Origin: an uncultured Pseudodesulfovibrio sp.
Lineage (GTDB): Bacteria > Desulfobacterota > Desulfovibrionia > Desulfovibrionales > Desulfovibrionaceae
Assembly: GCF_963675635.1 (NCBI RefSeq)
Contig: NZ_OY776488.1
Span: 2,252,001-2,316,000, forward strand
Length of the DNA: 64,000 nucleotides
Direction of reading: 5' to 3'
Under the pieces are notes generated by a model. It worked only from the letters and a program-made list of their open reading frames with translations. It was not told the DNA's origin and searched no databases. Made by a program: the position numbers and the translations under genes. This document shows, one piece after another, positions 2,918 through 63,755 of this stretch; the stretch's first letter is position 1, and each line of letters begins with the position of its first letter.

Positions 2918-3607
2918 ACTGCGTGCCTTCGCAATGAAGGTGCAAACGGTATTGTTGCAAAGGTTTCGCCTTTACGGCGACCTGCTTTTTGCGGGGCGGC
3001 AAAAAGCAGGCAAAAAGCGCCTTCTGGGCTGTGAGCCTGATACCGGCCCCAAGAGCCTGTACGCGGCTTCACTGCCCGACAGAATCTGTCTGTTGAAACA
3101 GACTGCGGTCGGGCCACGCTACGCCGCGCAGGACAGGCTCTAAGGTCCGTTATCAATTGTCCGTCGTTGTCCGATACCCTTCGGTGTAGGTGAGAAACTT
3201 TGATTCTTGGCTCTTCGATAACCATAGAGGGCCTTGGGGGAACTTTAGCCCCCCCCAACACCGCTCTTCCTTCGAAGACGAGTTCTTCGCCTTATCAGAC
3301 GAAGACCGGACTCAGCCCTTGATCGGAAGGCTTAGAAGCTGACAGCGCGCACTGGCAGCGTCTTGTTCGAAATTGCACTGGAGCGGAGCGGAAGAACACG
3401 ATTCCGAAAGCTGCGCGCGGTGATCAGCTTCTTGCCGCCGATCACAAGGCGGCCAAGATAGCAAGGGGCTTTTTTTCGGCCCTTTTTTGCCCCAACAAAA
3501 AAACGGCCCCCGCCGGGAGGGCATGGAGAACGTCGGGTGCTCCAGCACCCAACAACAGCTCTCGCCGAAGGCGGCATCTTCCAATAAAAAAAGGCCGCTC
3601 TCAAAGC
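2918..3607 (+). repeat. Dispersed structured repeat, copy A (full length, right end interrupted)
   Basis: About 690 bp of hairpin-rich DNA that recurs, diverged, at 27892-28276 (same orientation, inner part missing), 39741-40074 (inverted, about half) and 45533-46268 (inverted, full length). Landmarks in order: the hairpin CTGCTTTTTGC/GCAAAAAGCAG near 2980, a GC-rich stretch CGACCGCAG near 3110, GGAGCGGAGCGG near 3380, the GGGGC..T-runs..GCCCC segment near 3465-3495, GGGTGCT/AGCACCC near 3534, then the outer terminator half AAGGCCGCTCTCAAAGC ending at 3607. The outer end is split by the insertion at 3608-4682 and resumes at 4683 with GCTCTCAAAGCGGCCCTTCC. Open frames inside it do not match each other between copies, so I treat it as non-coding. 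Confidence 0.85.
3597..3607. repeat. Target-site duplication, left copy
   Basis: GCTCTCAAAGC, identical to 4683-4693. It sits in the stem-loop of the terminator hairpin that closes dispersed repeat copy A. The 11-bp length fits IS4-like transposition. Confidence 0.85.
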
Positions 3608-3635
3608 AAGGCGTTTTCCATAAATGTTGATAAAA
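3608..3635 (+). repeat. Left terminal inverted repeat
   Basis: Starts AAGGCGTTTTCCATAAATG and pairs with the right end at 4655-4682 with three mismatches (positions 4, 15 and 24 of 28). Confidence 0.85.
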
Positions 3636-3664
3636 TGGCCCCGACTAAGTCGGGGCCATTTTTT
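3632..3664. terminator. Bidirectional intrinsic terminator
   Basis: A near-perfect palindrome, AAAATGGCCCCGACT then AGTCGGGGCCATTTT, with T runs on both strands. It lies just inside the left end of the insertion, downstream of the pentapeptide gene, and would insulate that gene from the host repeat. Confidence 0.8.
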
Positions 3665-3727
3665 ACTTCACTAGCTAGGTTGAAGATGAACAATCCCCGA
3701 GAATCAGCAGAGAGTAGAGCAATGAAT

Positions 3728-4423
3728 TTAACCACTCCTTCGGGCCATTTTAGTGGCGACCAAAGACACCAGGCATCCAAACATTATGAAGCCTACGAGG
3801 GATTCAAGTGCCAATACGAAAAGTTCCAAAAAGTCTCTATTGGTAGAATCAATAAATCCAAAAGAAGAGAAGGAGAAAACGCTAGTAAGAAAAGGATGGT
3901 CAACGTTGTCAAAGTGGTAAAGAACCGCCCCAAAAAAAGCAATTATGATCATACAGCAGCAGCTAAACCTAGCCCACGACCGACCACATTTGGATGTCAG
4001 ATGCCACCAGAAATACCAATTTGGGTGGTTTTCCTCGAATTCTTCAAGATAATCCAAATCCATAACGTGCCGGACAAAACGCTGGCTACCATGACAGCCA
4101 TTGAAAGTTGCACCTCTGCAAACCATACTAGTATCAAATTTTACGTCATTAACTTGGGTGTTGGTGAACCATGTCCACGAAATATTTGCTCCTTGAAGCA
4201 TTGCTTTTTCGAGGTACGCCTCTGTGAAAGTTGCAAGTGTAAGGTTCGTTTTTTTAAAGTTTACATTAAAGAGAAAGGCCCCTTCAAAATTTATTTCTTT
4301 AAGGTCTGTGCCACTCAGGTCAGTATGGCTGAGGTTCGGCATTTCGTCCGGATTATCTTTTCTCCATTTATTCCAAACTTCGACGCCTTGCTTCAAGATT
4401 GCGACATGTTTTTCATTTGCCAT
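3728..4423 (-). CDS. Pentapeptide-repeat protein with a two-helix, K+-channel-like membrane module
   Basis: A 231-residue product. ATG at 4423 (MANEKHVAIL) is preferred over a TTG 15 bases upstream because a GGAG site lies 9 bases before it. Residues 30-95 carry pentapeptide repeats (DLSGTDLKEINFEGA, NVNFKKTNLTLATF, LEKAMLQGANISW). Two membrane helices follow near 145-165 and 200-220, separated by a short hydrophobic loop, FLTSVFSFSSFGFID, in the position of a pore helix and filter. The layout matches bacterial pentapeptide/ion-channel fusions, but the filter lacks the usual TxGxGD. It is the only gene of the inserted element and is more AT-rich than its neighbours. Physiological role unknown. 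Confidence 0.75.
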   Translation of the reverse strand: MANEKHVAILKQGVEVWNKWRKDNPDEMPNLSHTDLSGTDLKEINFEGAFLFNVNFKKTNLTLATFTEAYLEKAMLQGANISWTWFTNTQVNDVKFDTSMVCRGATFNGCHGSQRFVRHVMDLDYLEEFEENHPNWYFWWHLTSKCGRSWARFSCCCMIIIAFFGAVLYHFDNVDHPFLTSVFSFSSFGFIDSTNRDFLELFVLALESLVGFIMFGCLVSLVATKMARRSG

Positions 4424-4654
4424 GGTGAAGTGCTCCAACGTGGATGTGAATTAGAAAAACAAATTTTTCAGTATGTTGGTTTGGATACAGCGGAATTGTT
4501 AACAGGTTTGGCCGCGTAGGCCGTACTACTCGGCATAGGTTGAGCCGTTTTTGACGAAGACACTGTAGACTAGCAACCTGGGAAAATATTTTACCCATAA
4601 GAAGAACTTCCTGTTCACCAAAATGAACAGGGGGTTACGTTTGATTTTAGGCGT

Positions 4655-4682
4655 TTTTGTCAACATATATGGAAAACGTCTT
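4655..4682 (-). repeat. Right terminal inverted repeat
   Basis: Read leftward it starts AAGACGTTTTCCATATATG. It ends exactly at the right target duplication, 4683-4693. Confidence 0.85.
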
Positions 4683-4702
4683 GCTCTCAAAGCGGCCCTT
4701 CC

Positions 4703-6277
4703 TTACTTCTTCATCTCTTCAAGAAATTTCAATTTCATCAATATATCAGCTTCAAGAACCGCCTGTTCAGCCCGTGCGGCAGCACACACCTCCCCAACCC
4801 CATGCATGGTCTGCATCTTGTACTTATTGCCAAGCGCATTTCCTTCTTCCTGCATAGAACCATGAGAAGCCATCCCCGTACGTTTCTTGTGACGCACAGC
4901 CAGATGCCCCTGATACACCGGGAACAATCCGGCCTCGCACAGACGAATGTCATGTTCCATATCATCATACTGGGACGGTGAAAGCTGAATCGCAAAATCC
5001 CCGGACTCAAGCAGGGTCTCGGTACGAAAAAGATGACAACACCCTGTCACCGAAGCACACGGACGCATGAAATCGAAAACGCCGGTATCCAACGTCTGAA
5101 CATGCAGGTCCGACAACCTGAACGGATTGGGCGCAAGCTTTGCGAGATTCACGATCGTATCCGGCTCTGCCAGTAAATGACTATCCGCACTTTGGAGTCG
5201 CAACTGATTGGCATGATCAACAACCTTGCAGCCCCAGACACCCGCTTCCGGGTATTGCTGCACCGCCGCTCCGAGTCGGGACAACCAATCCGTCGGCAGC
5301 CCAACATCATCATCGAGATAACAGATGAATGCGTGCTGCTGCACCGCGTCCATATGAAGCAGCCAGTTGCGCGCTGAAGCCGCCCCCACGTTCACGGGCA
5401 GTGAGATCACCGTAAACCGATCCGCGCCGAGCTTAGTCGCAAAACGCGGCTCCCACTTGGCAAGGACTTCAACGGTCCGATCTGTCGAACCATTATCCAG
5501 CACGAAAATCGACACCCCGAGCAGTTCGGATTCAAGCAGCGATGCCAGGGTCGCGTCCAGCTCGTCCGCCTTATTCCATGAATAAAGCAGCACGGCGACG
5601 GAGCCAGGCAGTGCGGTCCGCATGTCGGCGACTCCGGTCAGCGCATCATACGTACGCAAGGCCAACCCAATGTTCCACGGGGCAGCGACCACACTTTTCA
5701 AAAGAAGATCGTTTTCAATCGTTTTTTCAGAGCAAGACAACGAGCAAACATGCTTTAAAGTACTATTAGCTACACTTTCGACACCGTTAACAGTGTCGAA
5801 AGAAATACATTCGACACAAAAATCCATATCGTTTTCAAAAAAACCGACAATCAGCGACTGCTCTCGCCAATACAGGTTACCCGGCTCTTTTCCGATCTGG
5901 CTGCGAATATGTTTTTTGATTGCCGGAAAGTCACGACCATCACGAAGCTTCAGGTATGGATCAGACGAACCGGGAGCGCGATAGTGGTCTGCCACCAATG
6001 TCAGCTTGGTTATTGTTTCCGGCGGCAAAACATTCTTAACCATATCCAGAACAAGCAGTTCGGCGGCCATGCGGCCATCAAGCGGATTTTCGCGAACAAC
6101 GGTTTCAAGCGCATCCACGGCAATGGGTATCAGGGCAGAATCACCAGACCGCAGGCACCATCCGGCAATTTCAAGCAGATGACGCTTGCCGACAAACCCG
6201 AGGCGCAGTTTGGCCTTGAGTTCCTCAGGTAGCGACAGCCAGAATCCAGTCAACCCATCAGTGGTCGCTCTTTCCAT
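4703..6277 (-). CDS. GT2 family glycosyltransferase with N-terminal helical region
   Basis: 524 residues from ATG 6277, chosen because GAGGAG lies 8 bases upstream; it overlaps the previous gene's end by 20 bases. Residues 1-215 form a helical region of unknown type with a short Cys-containing stretch. A GT-A fold begins near 222: AVLLYSWNKADELDATLAS, the nucleotide-binding IFVLDNGSTDRTVEVL, NVGAASARNWLLH and the DxD-type metal site CYLDDDVGLP near 325. The C-terminus contains the acceptor region with CCHLFRTETLLESGDF. It likely transfers sugar onto a surface glycan together with the upstream deacetylase-GT4 fusion. The stop codon touches the end of dispersed repeat copy A. Confidence 0.85.
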   Translation of the reverse strand: MERATTDGLTGFWLSLPEELKAKLRLGFVGKRHLLEIAGWCLRSGDSALIPIAVDALETVVRENPLDGRMAAELLVLDMVKNVLPPETITKLTLVADHYRAPGSSDPYLKLRDGRDFPAIKKHIRSQIGKEPGNLYWREQSLIVGFFENDMDFCVECISFDTVNGVESVANSTLKHVCSLSCSEKTIENDLLLKSVVAAPWNIGLALRTYDALTGVADMRTALPGSVAVLLYSWNKADELDATLASLLESELLGVSIFVLDNGSTDRTVEVLAKWEPRFATKLGADRFTVISLPVNVGAASARNWLLHMDAVQQHAFICYLDDDVGLPTDWLSRLGAAVQQYPEAGVWGCKVVDHANQLRLQSADSHLLAEPDTIVNLAKLAPNPFRLSDLHVQTLDTGVFDFMRPCASVTGCCHLFRTETLLESGDFAIQLSPSQYDDMEHDIRLCEAGLFPVYQGHLAVRHKKRTGMASHGSMQEEGNALGNKYKMQTMHGVGEVCAAARAEQAVLEADILMKLKFLEEMKK

Positions 6278-8360
6278 AAATTTGCTCCTCGCTCTGTGCC
6301 TTGGGCAGACTTTCCATATCCAACGGCTCAAACAGAGTTTCACCCATATATACGCGCATGAGGTTCCGCCCCTTGGCTTCCGGGGTCAACAGGGTACGCA
6401 CCAAGGCGCGTCCGGCACACCCCATGGAGAACCGTGCGGCTGGATTGTCGGCCATAAACCGCATCTTGTCAGCTAGGCACACGCTGTCTTCACTCTCGCA
6501 CAGAAAACCGTTGACGGAATCACGGACAATCTCCGGCACCCCTCCCACTCGGGTACAAATGGCAGGAACGCCAAAATCAAACCCTTCAAGCAGCGCATTG
6601 GGCAGACTTTCCTTGCGGGAGGTCATGACCTGCACGTCCGCAAAGGTCAATTCCTCAAGCACCTGTTCATGGGGAATGACGCCCGGCAAATGGAGCCGCT
6701 CTCTGACAGCCTGTGTCATGTGGTCAGCGAACCACTCCCGACGATCTTCGGGAACACCCACGGCCACGAACTCCATGTCCCGGCAGCCACCGTTTTCACA
6801 GAGGGTGGACGCCGCGTCGAGAAACACGTCATAGCCTTTGATATCCACGGTATTGCCGATGTAGATAAAACGAACTCCACGCTTCTTGCGCGGCTTGGGA
6901 TCGCCGAAGTCCGGCCCCACATAGGCGTTGTAAACCACATTCAACCGTTTTTTCAGCACATGGTGTTTGCGCATGACCTCCGCGCATTGCTGCGAATTGG
7001 CGATCACGCCGTCTGACAGTGCAGTCCACAGGAAAAATATCGAATTGGGCTTGGATATGACCCCGCGGTTGATGAACAGCTTGAATTGTGCTCCCATGAG
7101 CCGAGCCAGTACGCCCATCTTGTATGCACGATTGTGGAAGGTGTGCACCACATCGATGGAATTATCCTGCACCAGTTTCTTGAGGAACTTTCCAGCCTTC
7201 GTATATTTCTTGAAGTCGTCGAAGTGAATGACCTCCACGTCCAACCCTTCGAGTGCGCCATTGATGGGCGTATCGCTGGGGATCACGGCATAAGTCTTGA
7301 TGCCCATGTCGGACATGGCCTTGATGTTGTTGACCATCTGCCGACTGCCGCCGGAAAGTTTGTCGGAATCCGTGGCATAGAGTACGCTCCGCACTTCGGG
7401 TCGCTTGGTGTGCAGCTTGAAAAACACTCGCGCCGCCGGATCAGAACCGTACATGCGCAAACGGGACTGAATCCATTTGCCGGTTTTCTTCTTGCCAACG
7501 CCGATACGATTCAATCGGAACGGGTCCGTCCCCCTGGCATTGACCCACCGCTCCAGAGTAAAGGCTCCGACGTACCCTGCCTTACGTAATTCATCCTGCG
7601 CATCGTCGCAGAACTGCCCCCACGGCCAACAGAAAAGTTGCTCGTCAAAGCCGTTCAGTTCACGAATCCAGTCAATACTCTTGCGAAATTCCCTGCGGCA
7701 GAATTCAAGCCGTTCGGCAACGGGTCGTTGGACAAAACACGGCTCCCCCGAGCCATTGAAGACAGGCTGAAAACCGCCGTAGACATAGGCACTGGCAACC
7801 TTGAAAGTCGGCCAGTGGGCATTGAAACCGGGATAAATGGACCATGCACCCCAGTGGGCATTCTGTCCCATGGGCTGGAGCGGTTTGAGATCAAGGAATG
7901 CGCCCTGATGACGGCAGCCGTGCGAAAATATTTCCATACCTTTGTCAAGCATGGCCTTGAATTCGCTCTTATTAATGAATTGGGAAAAATCTCCGTGCAG
8001 ATGGGCGGCCTTGAATGTTTCAGGCATGGTCATCATATCGGGAGCGGTTTCGAGCGAGCGCACCGGGCCGTCCACGGTAAAATCAGCAAGACCGAAAAAA
8101 GTGCCGATCATGTTCCGCTTTTCCAACTCCGGAACCACGGTCAGCCAGTTGGACAAATGACCGTCGTCAAAGGTCAGGACCACGGACTTTTTCGGAGCCT
8201 TCATCTGCCCCCGCGTCACGGCCAGCAGGTCGCGGGAGGAAATGGTGTGCCAGCCATCGTCGACGATGGCGTCCAGGTGTTCACGAAATAGTTCCGGCGT
8301 ATGACCGTCAATGTCGCTGACATTATGATAACAAAGGACAGGTATGGATGTTCTGATCAT
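6258..8360 (-). CDS. Polysaccharide deacetylase (NodB-like) fused to a GT4 glycosyltransferase
   Basis: 700 residues with two catalytic modules. Residues 1-300 are a carbohydrate esterase 4 domain: PVLCYHNVS at the start, the metal/catalytic TFDDGHLSNW near 64, and HGCRHQGAFLDL with the usual His pair near 146. Residues 320-690 are a GT-B fold: YATDSDKLSGGSRQMVNNI, FIYIGNTVDIKGYDVFLDA, and the EX7E-like tail SRKESLPNALLEGFDFGVP near 610. The fusion suggests coupled glycan deacetylation and sugar transfer. It is cotranscribed with the GT2 gene (20-bp overlap). No signal peptide is seen, so it should act in the cytoplasm. Confidence 0.88.
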   Translation of the reverse strand: MIRTSIPVLCYHNVSDIDGHTPELFREHLDAIVDDGWHTISSRDLLAVTRGQMKAPKKSVVLTFDDGHLSNWLTVVPELEKRNMIGTFFGLADFTVDGPVRSLETAPDMMTMPETFKAAHLHGDFSQFINKSEFKAMLDKGMEIFSHGCRHQGAFLDLKPLQPMGQNAHWGAWSIYPGFNAHWPTFKVASAYVYGGFQPVFNGSGEPCFVQRPVAERLEFCRREFRKSIDWIRELNGFDEQLFCWPWGQFCDDAQDELRKAGYVGAFTLERWVNARGTDPFRLNRIGVGKKKTGKWIQSRLRMYGSDPAARVFFKLHTKRPEVRSVLYATDSDKLSGGSRQMVNNIKAMSDMGIKTYAVIPSDTPINGALEGLDVEVIHFDDFKKYTKAGKFLKKLVQDNSIDVVHTFHNRAYKMGVLARLMGAQFKLFINRGVISKPNSIFFLWTALSDGVIANSQQCAEVMRKHHVLKKRLNVVYNAYVGPDFGDPKPRKKRGVRFIYIGNTVDIKGYDVFLDAASTLCENGGCRDMEFVAVGVPEDRREWFADHMTQAVRERLHLPGVIPHEQVLEELTFADVQVMTSRKESLPNALLEGFDFGVPAICTRVGGVPEIVRDSVNGFLCESEDSVCLADKMRFMADNPAARFSMGCAGRALVRTLLTPEAKGRNLMRVYMGETLFEPLDMESLPKAQSEEQIYGKSDH

Positions 8361-27891: not shown

Positions 27892-28276
27892 ACTGCGTGC
27901 ATTCGCAGTAGAGGTGCAAACGGTATTGTTGCAACGGTTTTGCCTTGACGGCGACCTGCTTTTTGCGGGGCGGCAAAAAGCAGGCAAAAAGCGCCTTCTG
28001 GGCTGTGAGCCTGATACCGGACCCAAGAGCCTGTACGCGGTGATCAGCTTCTTGCCGCCGATCACAAGGCGGCCAAGATAGTAAGGGGCTTTTTTTCGGC
28101 CCTTTTTTTGCCCCAACAAAAAAACGGCCCCCGCCGGGAGGGCATGGAGAACGTTGGGTGCTTCAGCACCCAACAACGGCTCTCGCCGAAGGCGCATCTT
28201 CCAATAAAAAAGGCCGCTCTTAAAGCGGCCCTTCCTTATATCTTCTCTCCATCGGGGTTAAACCCCGACTTCTTCA
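27892..28276 (+). repeat. Dispersed structured repeat, copy B (inner segment missing)
   Basis: Same orientation as copy A. It matches A's 2918-3066, then jumps directly to A's 3421-3607, so about 354 bp of A are absent. The junction falls at CGCGG, present at both borders in A (GTACGCGG and GCGCGCGG), suggesting a deletion between short direct repeats. The outer end has the intact terminator (AAAGGCCGCT CTTA AAGCGGCC) and a second hairpin (TCGGGGTTAAACCCCGA), ending 10 bases from the stop codon of the convergent aminotransferase gene. Confidence 0.85.
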
Positions 28277-39740: not shown

Positions 39741-40074
39741 GGGGGGAAAACCCCGGTGGAGAGAAGAAGTAGGGATGGCCGCTTTCATGCGGCCTTTTTT
39801 ATTGGAAGATGACGCCTTCGGCGAGAGTCATTGTTGGGTGCTGAAGCACCCAAGGCATTCCATGCCCTCCCGGCGGGGGCCTTTTTTTGTTGGGGCAAAA
39901 AAAGGGCCGAAAAAAAGCCCCTTACTATCTTGGCCGCCTTGTGATCGGCGGCAAGAAGCTAATCACCGCGCGCAGCTTTCGGAATCGCGTTCTTCCGCTC
40001 CGCTCCAGTGCAATTCCGAACAAGACGCTGCCACTGCGCGCTGTCAGCTTCTAAGCCTTACGATCAAGGGCTGG
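39741..40074 (-). repeat. Dispersed structured repeat, copy C (truncated, inverted)
   Basis: Inverted relative to copy A. It contains the outer terminator end (CCGCTTTCATGCGG then TTTTTT), GGGTGCT/AGCACCC, the GGGGC..GCCCC segment, GATCGGCGGC and the GCGCTGTCAGCTTC block, ending at AAGGGCTG at 40074. The remaining half of A is absent. The terminator end faces the 3D gene's stop codon, like other copies with their neighbours. Confidence 0.85.
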
Positions 40075-43881: not shown

Positions 43882-44047
43882 TGACCGAGAGTAACCATTC
43901 CTGAATAGAAGGCAAGCGGGAACGAAAAAATGATGGAAATGATCAAGTCGTACCCTTCTTATTCGAGCAAAACAATACCCTCAAGGCTTCCACAGGGAAT
44001 CATAGGTTTACAGCAATACCATTGGTGTGTATCTATTTCCCGAAGAA

Positions 44048-44115
44048 AAAACCAAACCCGTTGCGAGACGGGGACGGAAAGCCACGGGTCTCACTGAGAC
44101 CGCCGGGTTGCCACA
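44048..44115 (+). promoter_or_regulatory. Cyclic di-GMP-I (GEMM-I) riboswitch aptamer
   Basis: The GEMM-I core is readable: CAAACC, a 4-bp stem capped by a GCGA (GNRA) tetraloop (44059-44070), then GGGACGGAAAGCC (44071-44083; consensus GGGACGCAAAGCC), a P3 stem GGTCTC/GAGACC and the closing CGGGTTGCC (44104-44112). It sits about 75 bases before an HD-GYP gene, a c-di-GMP phosphodiesterase family, as expected for feedback. Confidence 0.85.
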
Positions 44116-44175
44116 GCCACACCTCATGAATCAACAAAATGAGGTTTCTGACTGCTTTGGCAACCCCACCTTTTT
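44105..44175 (+). terminator. Riboswitch expression-platform terminator
   Basis: GGGTTGCC of the aptamer's 3' side (44105-44112) can instead pair perfectly with GGCAACCC (44159-44166), with an inner ACCTCAT/ATGAGGT stem (44121-44127 with 44139-44145), followed by CCACC and TTTTT. Ligand binding would lock GGGTTGCC into the aptamer and favour read-through, i.e. an ON switch. The T run is only a few bases from the AAGGAAG ribosome site. Confidence 0.7.
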
Positions 44176-45532: not shown

Positions 45533-46268
45533 GAAGAGGTCGGGGTTCAACCCCGATGGAAATGAAGATATAAGGAAGGGCCGCTTTGCAAGCGGCCTTT
45601 TTTATTGGAAGATGACGCCTTCGGCGAGAGCCGTTGTTGGGTGCTGGAGCACCCCAACGTTCTCCATGCCCTCCCAGCGGGGGCCGCTTTTTTGTTGGGG
45701 CAAAAAAAGGGCCGAAAAAAAGCCCCTTACTAGCTTGCCCGCCTTGTGATCGGCGGTAAGAAGCTGATCATCGCGCGCAGCTTTCGGAATCGCGTTCTTC
45801 CGCTCCGCTCCAGTGCAATTCCGAACAAGACGCTGCCACTGCGCACTGTCAGCTTCTAAGCCTTCCGATCAAGGGCTGAATCCGGTCCTTGTCTGAGAGA
45901 AGGAAGAACTCGTCTTCGAAGGAAGAGCGGTGTTGGGGTGCGGTGCACCCCAAAGCCCTTTATGATGAGCGAAGAGCTGAGAATCAAAGTCTTCCACCTA
46001 CACCGGAGCGCATTTTACAACGACGACCAATTGATAGCGGACCTTAGAGCCTGTCCCCCGCGGCGCAGCGCAGCCCGACCGCAGTCTGTTTCAACAGACA
46101 AATCTGTCGGGCAGTGGAGCCGCGTACAGGATCTTGGGTCCGGTATCAGGATCACAGCCCAAAAGGCGCTTTTTGCCTCCTTTTTGCCGCCCCGCAAAAA
46201 GCAGGTCGCCGTAAAGGCGAAACCTTTGCAACAATGCCGCTTGCATCCCCACTGCGAATGCACACAAT
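45533..46268 (-). repeat. Dispersed structured repeat, copy D (full length, inverted)
   Basis: Inverted relative to copy A and essentially full length (about 736 bp including the outer hairpin TCGGGGTTCAACCCCGA at 45539-45556). Intact terminator CCGCTTTGCAAGCGG then TTTTTT. All inner blocks of A are present in reverse order, including CGACCGCAG and the CTGCTTTTTGC/GCAAAAAGCAG hairpin, diverging near 46230-46268. Frames such as 45938-46342 run across it without conservation, so it is non-coding. The terminator end faces the DUF4911 stop codon. Confidence 0.85.
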
Positions 46269-63568: not shown

Positions 63569-63755
63569 GAATTACCCCTGGGACGTGCGTGATTGTCTGG
63601 AGTGTTATTGAGCCAATACTCTGTAAAAGGGCGACGACTCCAGTGAGCTGGTGAGCAAGCCCGGTACAACCGGGAAGCCTAAAGGTTCACGAGTCATGCC
63701 CACCTGGAAATGCCAGGTTCAAAACAAACAGGCAACACGGCATCCCGGGGATTAA
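63569..63755 (+). ncRNA. ssrS: 6S RNA
   Basis: About 187 nt. The 3' half matches the 6S pattern well: GGTGAGCA, GCCCGGT..ACCGGGAAGCCT, CACCTGG..CCAGGTTCAA, then CGGCATCCCGGGGATT. The 5' end AATTACCCCTGGGACG pairs with that 3' end to close the long duplex with a central bubble. It mimics an open promoter and sequesters the sigma-70 holoenzyme. Position directly after zapA is the usual one. Confidence 0.85.

Follow-up and report, generated by a model that had tools for sequence, protein, structure and literature searches.

A probable trans-mobilised insertion cassette with a pentapeptide-repeat cargo gene and its relatives in Pseudodesulfovibrio

Mobile insertion cassettes (MICs) of the MIC231 type share their ends with an autonomous insertion sequence (IS), hold no transposase and carry a passenger gene within a modular cargo. 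The same anatomy, with shared ends, no transposase, a passenger gene, a target duplication and an empty site, was found in a 1,077-bp element (3607..4683, reverse strand) within the window analysed here, a stretch of 64,000 nucleotides covering positions 2252001-2316000 of the 3.52-Mb single-contig genome of an uncultured Pseudodesulfovibrio sp. We consider it very probable that this element is a trans-mobilised insertion cassette, that is, a non-autonomous derivative of a Pseudodesulfovibrio transposon family, whose movement in trans we infer from sequence comparison. Passenger genes have been described in IS231-type elements, and the same source gives target duplications of about 10 bp for IS231/IS4 and names a YREK motif for IS4-type transposases (PMC2266710).

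The cassette is bounded by 24-bp inverted repeats identical at 22 of 24 positions, one forming the 3' end of the element (CAAGGCGTTTTCCATAAATGTTGA, 3607..3630, forward strand) and the other its 5', transposase-start end (CAAGACGTTTTCCATATATGTTGA, 4660..4683, reverse strand), and these differ from the end pattern common to the family by zero and one mismatch. The original prediction for this locus had reported terminal repeats matching at 25 of 28 positions, which is reproduced when 3608-3635 is set against the reverse complement of 4655-4682. It had also reported an 11-bp flanking duplication, GCTCTCAAAGC, which does occur literally twice (3597-3607 and 4683-4693) but is best read as a 9-bp duplication, CTCTCAAAG (3598..3606 and 4684..4692), extended by the ends' own C/G, since 9 bp is consistent across 11 elements and the ends start with CAAG. 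Elsewhere in the window, the 24-bp end CAAGNCGTTTTCCATAAATGTTGA finds no match at up to three mismatches, where the chance expectation is 0.00 (100 shuffles). Reading inward from the 5' end on the reverse strand, a subterminal hairpin (4605..4636), which the alignment shows to be kept with compensatory changes in cassettes and transposons, is followed by a transposase-start remnant (4575..4598; an ATG and first codons, MGKIFSQV) that opens a 590-amino-acid (590-aa) transposase in two complete transposons and beyond which the cassette diverges. The cargo gene (3728..4423) comes next and, within the 3' end, an intrinsic terminator hairpin (3632..3662) is formed by a perfect 15-bp inverted repeat that occupies the same place in the 3'-end alignment.

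The cargo gene encodes a 231-aa pentapeptide-repeat protein (PF00805, E 7.8e-13) and is the lone gene with a family match inside the cassette. This agrees with the earlier assignment of a sole pentapeptide/channel gene, except that the channel part is a matter of sequence resemblance: the C-terminal part is hydrophobic and channel-like, Ion_trans_2 gives no match in the protein at E up to 1, and its homologue in another cassette (L053) matches that model at E 0.3. Identity with the Hailong effector HalA was considered and set aside, as the match to NF051894 is weak, confined to the C-terminal part and scored at 22 bits (E 7.8e-5) against a cut-off of 250, with 15.2 bits for the L053 homologue. 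Structure prediction of the cargo protein alone gave a predicted local distance difference test score (pLDDT) of 42.1. A longer paralogue of this protein lies elsewhere in the genome (L007, 12937-13824), with no family end adjoining.

Joining the flanks in silico recreates the terminator portion of a dispersed repeat (3281..3606, forward strand), whose terminal hairpin is the landing site. Further copies occur at 28036-28249, 39759-40073 and 45559-45910, with an unbroken hairpin core at 28212-28230 (one mismatch) and at 45579-45597 (two mismatches), bearing out the claim that excision restores the terminator hairpin of this repeat. The comparison of orthologous loci that the original prediction had proposed was made through the gene adjoining the landing terminator (4703..6343, reverse strand; glycosyltransferase-like, named by eye), which has close orthologues at 76-77% identity in three genomes (G033, G009 and G008). 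In these relatives the locus is uninterrupted: the DNA alignment runs unbroken over the insertion point (84%, 82% and 83%, respectively, over 319 bp), the terminator hairpin is whole, and synteny extends to the next gene upstream (89-90% identical over 526 residues). Because the orthologous site is empty and continuous in all three, the cassette was most likely gained after its host had diverged from these species, and with the duplication and the empty sites in hand, the earlier wording of "direct evidence of past transposition" is fair as regards insertion. The perfect duplication, the ends matching at 22 of 24 positions, the intact 231-aa frame and the empty site in relatives together make it very unlikely that the locus is a decayed, immobile relic, in which the repeats would be the termini of an element now dead and the gene would by now be an ordinary genomic one; what speaks for such a relic is that no transposase was found in the host and that the host genome holds just one further (left) end. 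The dispersed repeat itself measures about 326 bp, with the terminator at its end, and has 24 matching pieces in its own genome; its terminator part is also present at the orthologous site in the three relatives. Elsewhere in the window lie a 6S RNA (63572-63755) and a c-di-GMP-I-GGC riboswitch (44042-44116).

The trans-mobilised cassette reading is further strengthened by the presence of candidate parents in the genus. With up to three mismatches allowed, the end pattern was recovered in 24 of the 36 genus genomes (the window's own included), and a reversed-pattern control gave nothing in any of the 36. Two complete transposons, L048 (5,699 bp) and L049 (4,051 bp), have ends identical at 24/24 positions and perfect 9-bp duplications (CCTGAAAGG and CTCCCGGCG, respectively). 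Both open with the 590-aa transposase gene, at 92% identity between the two, and additionally carry a D12-class adenine methylase with an AlwI-type endonuclease (L048) or a C5 methylase with an NgoMIV-type endonuclease (L049). A third transposon, in P. pelocollis, is split over two contigs whose outer edges have the 9-mer CCGCGAGGA in common, and the terminal frame of one half resembles, by eye, the end of the AlwI-type endonuclease of L048. Pairwise ratios of nonsynonymous to synonymous substitution among the three full transposase genes (0.048-0.065, with synonymous sites far diverged) point to purifying selection on the transposase in the three relatives. A full element with matching ends and a transposase had been proposed as a thing to search for, as had cassettes that combine such ends with other cargo, and both occur in the genus.

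Other gene-bearing cassettes number 11, in the genus and one neighbouring genus, with cargo that is unrelated or related. The best nine, from eight genomes (the window cassette, L050, L052, L053, L054, L055, L057, L015 and L017), were compared together with L048 and L049, and in these 11 elements the 9-bp duplication is perfect in nine and has one mismatch in two. The first 109 bp at the 5' end are 74-94% identical across all 55 pairs, and the nine cassettes match the autonomous element over about 109 bp, through transposase codon 8-9, and diverge beyond. Interiors are similar in 5 of the 55 pairs (tblastx, E up to 1e-3), namely the pentapeptide proteins of the window cassette and L053, three pairs among L050, L057 and L015, and the two transposons. 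Behind the similarity among L050, L057 and L015 are a small CxxC protein, present in two of them, and a protein in common, for which only the L050 copy gives a Trypco2 match, a weak one (E 0.056). The cargo of L052, L054, L055, L017, L177 and L194 could be assigned to no clear family in Pfam or NCBIfam, where the NCBIfam scan covered one of the two L017 proteins, and a PADLOC scan of 16 cassette proteins returned no convincing match. Two weak PADLOC matches, of the small CxxC protein of L050 to PDC-M26B (E 0.008) and of a 93-aa protein of L054 to a type II endonuclease model (E 0.0058), were the only ones to emerge, and since these, like the HalA and Trypco2 matches, are weak, a defence label for the cassette cargo was rejected.

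Less well preserved members widen the family. L174 (G020) has decayed ends that enclose a further pentapeptide protein, CCTGATGAG standing on one side and TCTGATGAG on the other, and L194, from another genus of the family (G570), has a 181-residue open frame and a duplication with two mismatches. A family-level search matched 27 of 288 genomes, three of them outside the genus, and among these three paired ends are present in G570 only. A sequence-structure model of the 5' end matched 24 places in 17 of the 36 genus genomes, indicating that additional, partly degraded copies exist.

Unrelated interiors between ends common to the cassettes would also be expected if resident cassettes recombined homologously through their conserved ends and so swapped cargo, while transposition by the 590-aa protein was rare and only spread ready-made cassettes. 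In keeping with such exchange, L050, L015 and L017 differ partly in cargo and share a transposase-start frame that stops at the same place, after codon 9. Each of the nine best cassettes, however, has its own 9-bp duplication in a different landing sequence, so transposition made the insertions and at most the cargo-exchange step is left to recombination, for which the ends, about 109 bp long and 74-94% identical, would moreover be short; we regard this alternative as unlikely. A second alternative, which is possible though we lean somewhat against it, supposes that autonomous transposons underwent internal deletion or replacement independently of one another, each time with a neighbouring gene trapped by another 3' end lying beyond it and with no exchange platform involved. 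That internal deletion happens is shown by a 35-bp relic (L012/L056) that retains the two ends and is flanked by a perfect 9-bp duplication, L177 (G005) keeps about 20 transposase codons, and lone 3' ends with the terminator are present in six genus genomes. Against it stands the divergence of nine cassettes from the transposase at nearly one place, which is unexpected unless that place is a functional limit of the 5' end.

Among the lone 3' ends, one lies with its terminator behind a PpiC-like gene (named by eye) in the window's genome (L007, 4420-4480), and those of five further genomes (L051, L064-L067) come after similar flanking sequence; the six are apparently one old insertion, perhaps domesticated. 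Gene-less copies of 253-257 bp were found in G030 (L058-L060), two of them with perfect duplications.

The 590-aa transposase aligns with its homologues, 11 in all, over their length. Its N-terminal zinc ribbon and helix-turn-helix (HTH) match E. coli InsA (hhalign 93.6%, E 2.1e-7), and the NCBIfam IS1/IS1595 zinc-ribbon domain NF050000, with a cut-off of 28, scores 28.1 bits in L048 and 30.3 bits in L049 and stays under the cut-off in three other homologues. The best solved-structure matches are likewise zinc fingers, at residues about 100-165. No similarity to InsB was detectable in the C-terminal part (hhalign probability 0.1), no Pfam catalytic transposase domain was matched in the 11 members (the InsA zinc ribbon appearing weakly in 5 of the 11), and the catalytic part is covered by none of the Pfam (11 members) or NCBIfam (five members) models tested. 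Candidate residues of an Asp-Asp-Glu (DDE) catalytic triad are D222 and E524, invariant in the 11 homologues, and D382, nearly invariant; the second site is E in L086 and absent from a short Photobacterium copy (L080). As judged by Pfam and NCBIfam, the family is apparently unclassified, and it may be listed in ISfinder. Judged by titles and abstract openings, literature searches brought up nothing recognisable on this family or on dfrG elements of the kind described below.

The transposase family extends from Desulfobacterota relatives to plasmids of Proteobacteria and Bacillota. A tblastn search matched 129 plasmid records, 90 of them from Enterococcus, and a sample of 395 genomes from the phylum gave three with a match, one being only a fragment close to the edge of a contig. 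Ends and duplications were sought in eight plasmid stretches, and five have ends matching at 23-24 of 24 positions with 8-10-bp duplications: those of P. aeruginosa (2,010 bp), Marinobacter (2,043 bp), Rhizobium (1,886-1,888 bp), Pontibacillus (3,225 bp) and E. faecium (3,276 bp with dfrG; L079, 5332-8607). The distant transposase relative encoded by this E. faecium dfrG element is matched by 90 Enterococcus and 9 Staphylococcus plasmid records. On a Polaromonas plasmid (L190, 19885-30006), a transposase relative is followed by a large AAA protein, an HNH nuclease and others. Viral contigs yielded no relative when searched with the transposase alone, two loci with the transposase alignment, one locus (from an already matched contig) with the Enterococcus protein and none with the Pseudomonas protein; two phage records matched, both from Staphylococcus, at 23% identity.

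In the 11 elements compared, the joined-flank sites all rank in hairpin stability within at least the top 0.9% of sampled sites at the same locus, the G570 site likewise lies in a stable hairpin (0.16%), and the site of the Pontibacillus element fits hairpin landing. Hairpin targeting is thus strong in the cassette and transposon group and is no rule for the whole transposase family. The subterminal hairpin of the 5' end, which separates the end repeat from the transposase start, occurs in the 12 aligned ends with 94.2% of cells paired, and 5 of its 13 pairs have changed on both sides, which 1 of 500 shuffles reached and slid controls fell far below. It may act as RNA, either by hiding the transposase ribosome site from read-through transcripts or by terminating transcription that comes in through the host terminator disrupted by the insertion. 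As the hairpin is kept in cassettes that lack the transposase, a function that benefits the cassette or the cargo is favoured.

On the reading preferred here, the autonomous parent has its 590-aa transposase gene starting close inside one end, with a restriction-modification system behind it, and in the cassettes other genes have replaced everything beyond about transposase codon 9. What is kept is some 109 bp at the 5' end (the 24-bp repeat, the hairpin and the transposase start) and, at the 3' end, the 24-bp repeat with the terminator. The 590-aa transposase would bind both ends and insert the cassette in trans, probably through a DDE reaction that cuts the target with a 9-bp stagger. The window cargo may be co-transcribed with the upstream gene or transcribed from within the element, and its transcript would end at the cassette's own terminator. 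As the host now lacks a detected transposase copy, the enzyme may have come and gone by horizontal transfer.

Several points weigh against the trans-mobilised cassette. Its movement is deduced from the DNA record and was never observed. The transposase was not found in the window's own genome, so that no helper is at hand now and the cassette is at present an orphan; in the genus survey a full-length transposase occurs in just 3 of 36 genomes, with fragments in two more. L177 has ends matching at 20/24 positions around a 211-residue open frame, no duplication, and more of the transposase than the other cassettes, and the gene-less L058 also has no duplication. None of the 36 genomes showed the empty site of the PpiC-terminator relic in the form guessed for it. 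Three of the eight plasmid relatives gave no clean pair of ends with a duplication: the Acidovorax copy has ends at 24/24 and no duplication, Polaromonas has ends at 22/24, 10.1 kb apart, without a clean duplication, and no ends were found for the Photobacterium copy; nor were convincing ends found around the transposases of two phylum relatives (G397 and G098). Outside the hairpin rule fall the relic L056 and the gene-less L059 and L060 (fractions 0.69, 0.96 and 0.097; 3 of 14 sites), as do the Marinobacter and Rhizobium elements (0.77 and 0.64). Finally, the predicted fold of the transposase is poor (pLDDT 31.8), so the DDE assignment draws on residue conservation alone.

A broader proposal, which we put forward tentatively and hold to be rather doubtful, is that the family is a transposase-driven counterpart of integron cassettes, with a standard platform, made up of about 109 bp at one end and the end repeat plus a terminator at the other, and exchangeable small gene modules, some perhaps for phage defence. 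Such cassettes would be mobilised in trans by an unclassified family of DDE transposases, one that itself travels in elements with restriction-modification systems, and would land in terminator hairpins. The weak defence matches of the cargo have slightly lowered our confidence in it. Were it true, terminator-hairpin landing would add each cargo behind a host gene with none broken. Origin as an integron gene cassette proper was rejected, since the inverted ends and duplications argue against it, and no attC search was made. One genus here combines the parent transposon with a dozen cassettes of differing cargo, miniatures without genes, a relic of 35 bp and the empty orthologous site, a set that an understanding of MIC-type cassettes needs and that makes the entry of cargo into a fixed transposon frame testable. 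The cassettes further suggest a route by which single genes may pass between bacteria without the moving enzyme. Single genes moved by this transposase family, the dfrG element included, are easily missed by annotation because no tested Pfam or NCBIfam model covers the catalytic part.

Compared with known systems, the window cassette resembles MIC231 in its IS-shared ends, passenger gene, modular cargo and lack of a transposase, whereas its family differs in the ends CAAGNCGTT, the terminator-hairpin target, and the placing of cargo behind a fixed 5' platform that includes the transposase start; its duplication measures 9 bp, beside the figure of about 10 bp for IS231/IS4. The likeness to MIC231-type cassettes drawn in the original prediction thus stands for the anatomy and, very probably, for the way the element works, and fails for the parent transposase, which is not IS231/IS4-like. 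The YREK motif of that group has the spacing Y-x2-R-x3-E-x6-K around the catalytic E; here this spacing is absent, the residues around E524 being ARRRSSYLERG with S rather than R at position -4, and membership in IS231/IS4 was rejected. IS1 makes a 9-bp duplication and has ends GGnnnTG, and the present family shares with it the InsA-type zinc ribbon and HTH and the duplication length, while differing in its single 590-aa frame, its ends starting with CAAG and the lack of detectable InsB similarity. Membership in IS1 was likewise rejected, as the IS1 model scores 26-36 bits in the five homologues tested against a cut-off of 100 and the match is confined to the N-terminal zinc ribbon/HTH, with no match to the InsB catalytic domain. 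The IS1595 family includes passenger-carrying ISs and cassettes and has a transposase domain in Pfam; passenger genes and an NF050000 zinc ribbon that reaches its cut-off in L048 and L049 are points in common, whereas the IS1595 transposase domain is not among the Pfam matches of the 11 members. The dfrG element of the Enterococcus plasmid ("insertion element protein") has a homologous transposase (23% identity over 97%), ends at 24/24, a 9-bp duplication and a cargo gene behind the transposase, and it differs in its ends (TAAGTAGTTCAG...) and its cargo. Overall, what seems new as a set is an apparently unclassified transposase family with restriction-modification transposons as parents and many cassettes that combine nearly one breakpoint with exchangeable cargo.
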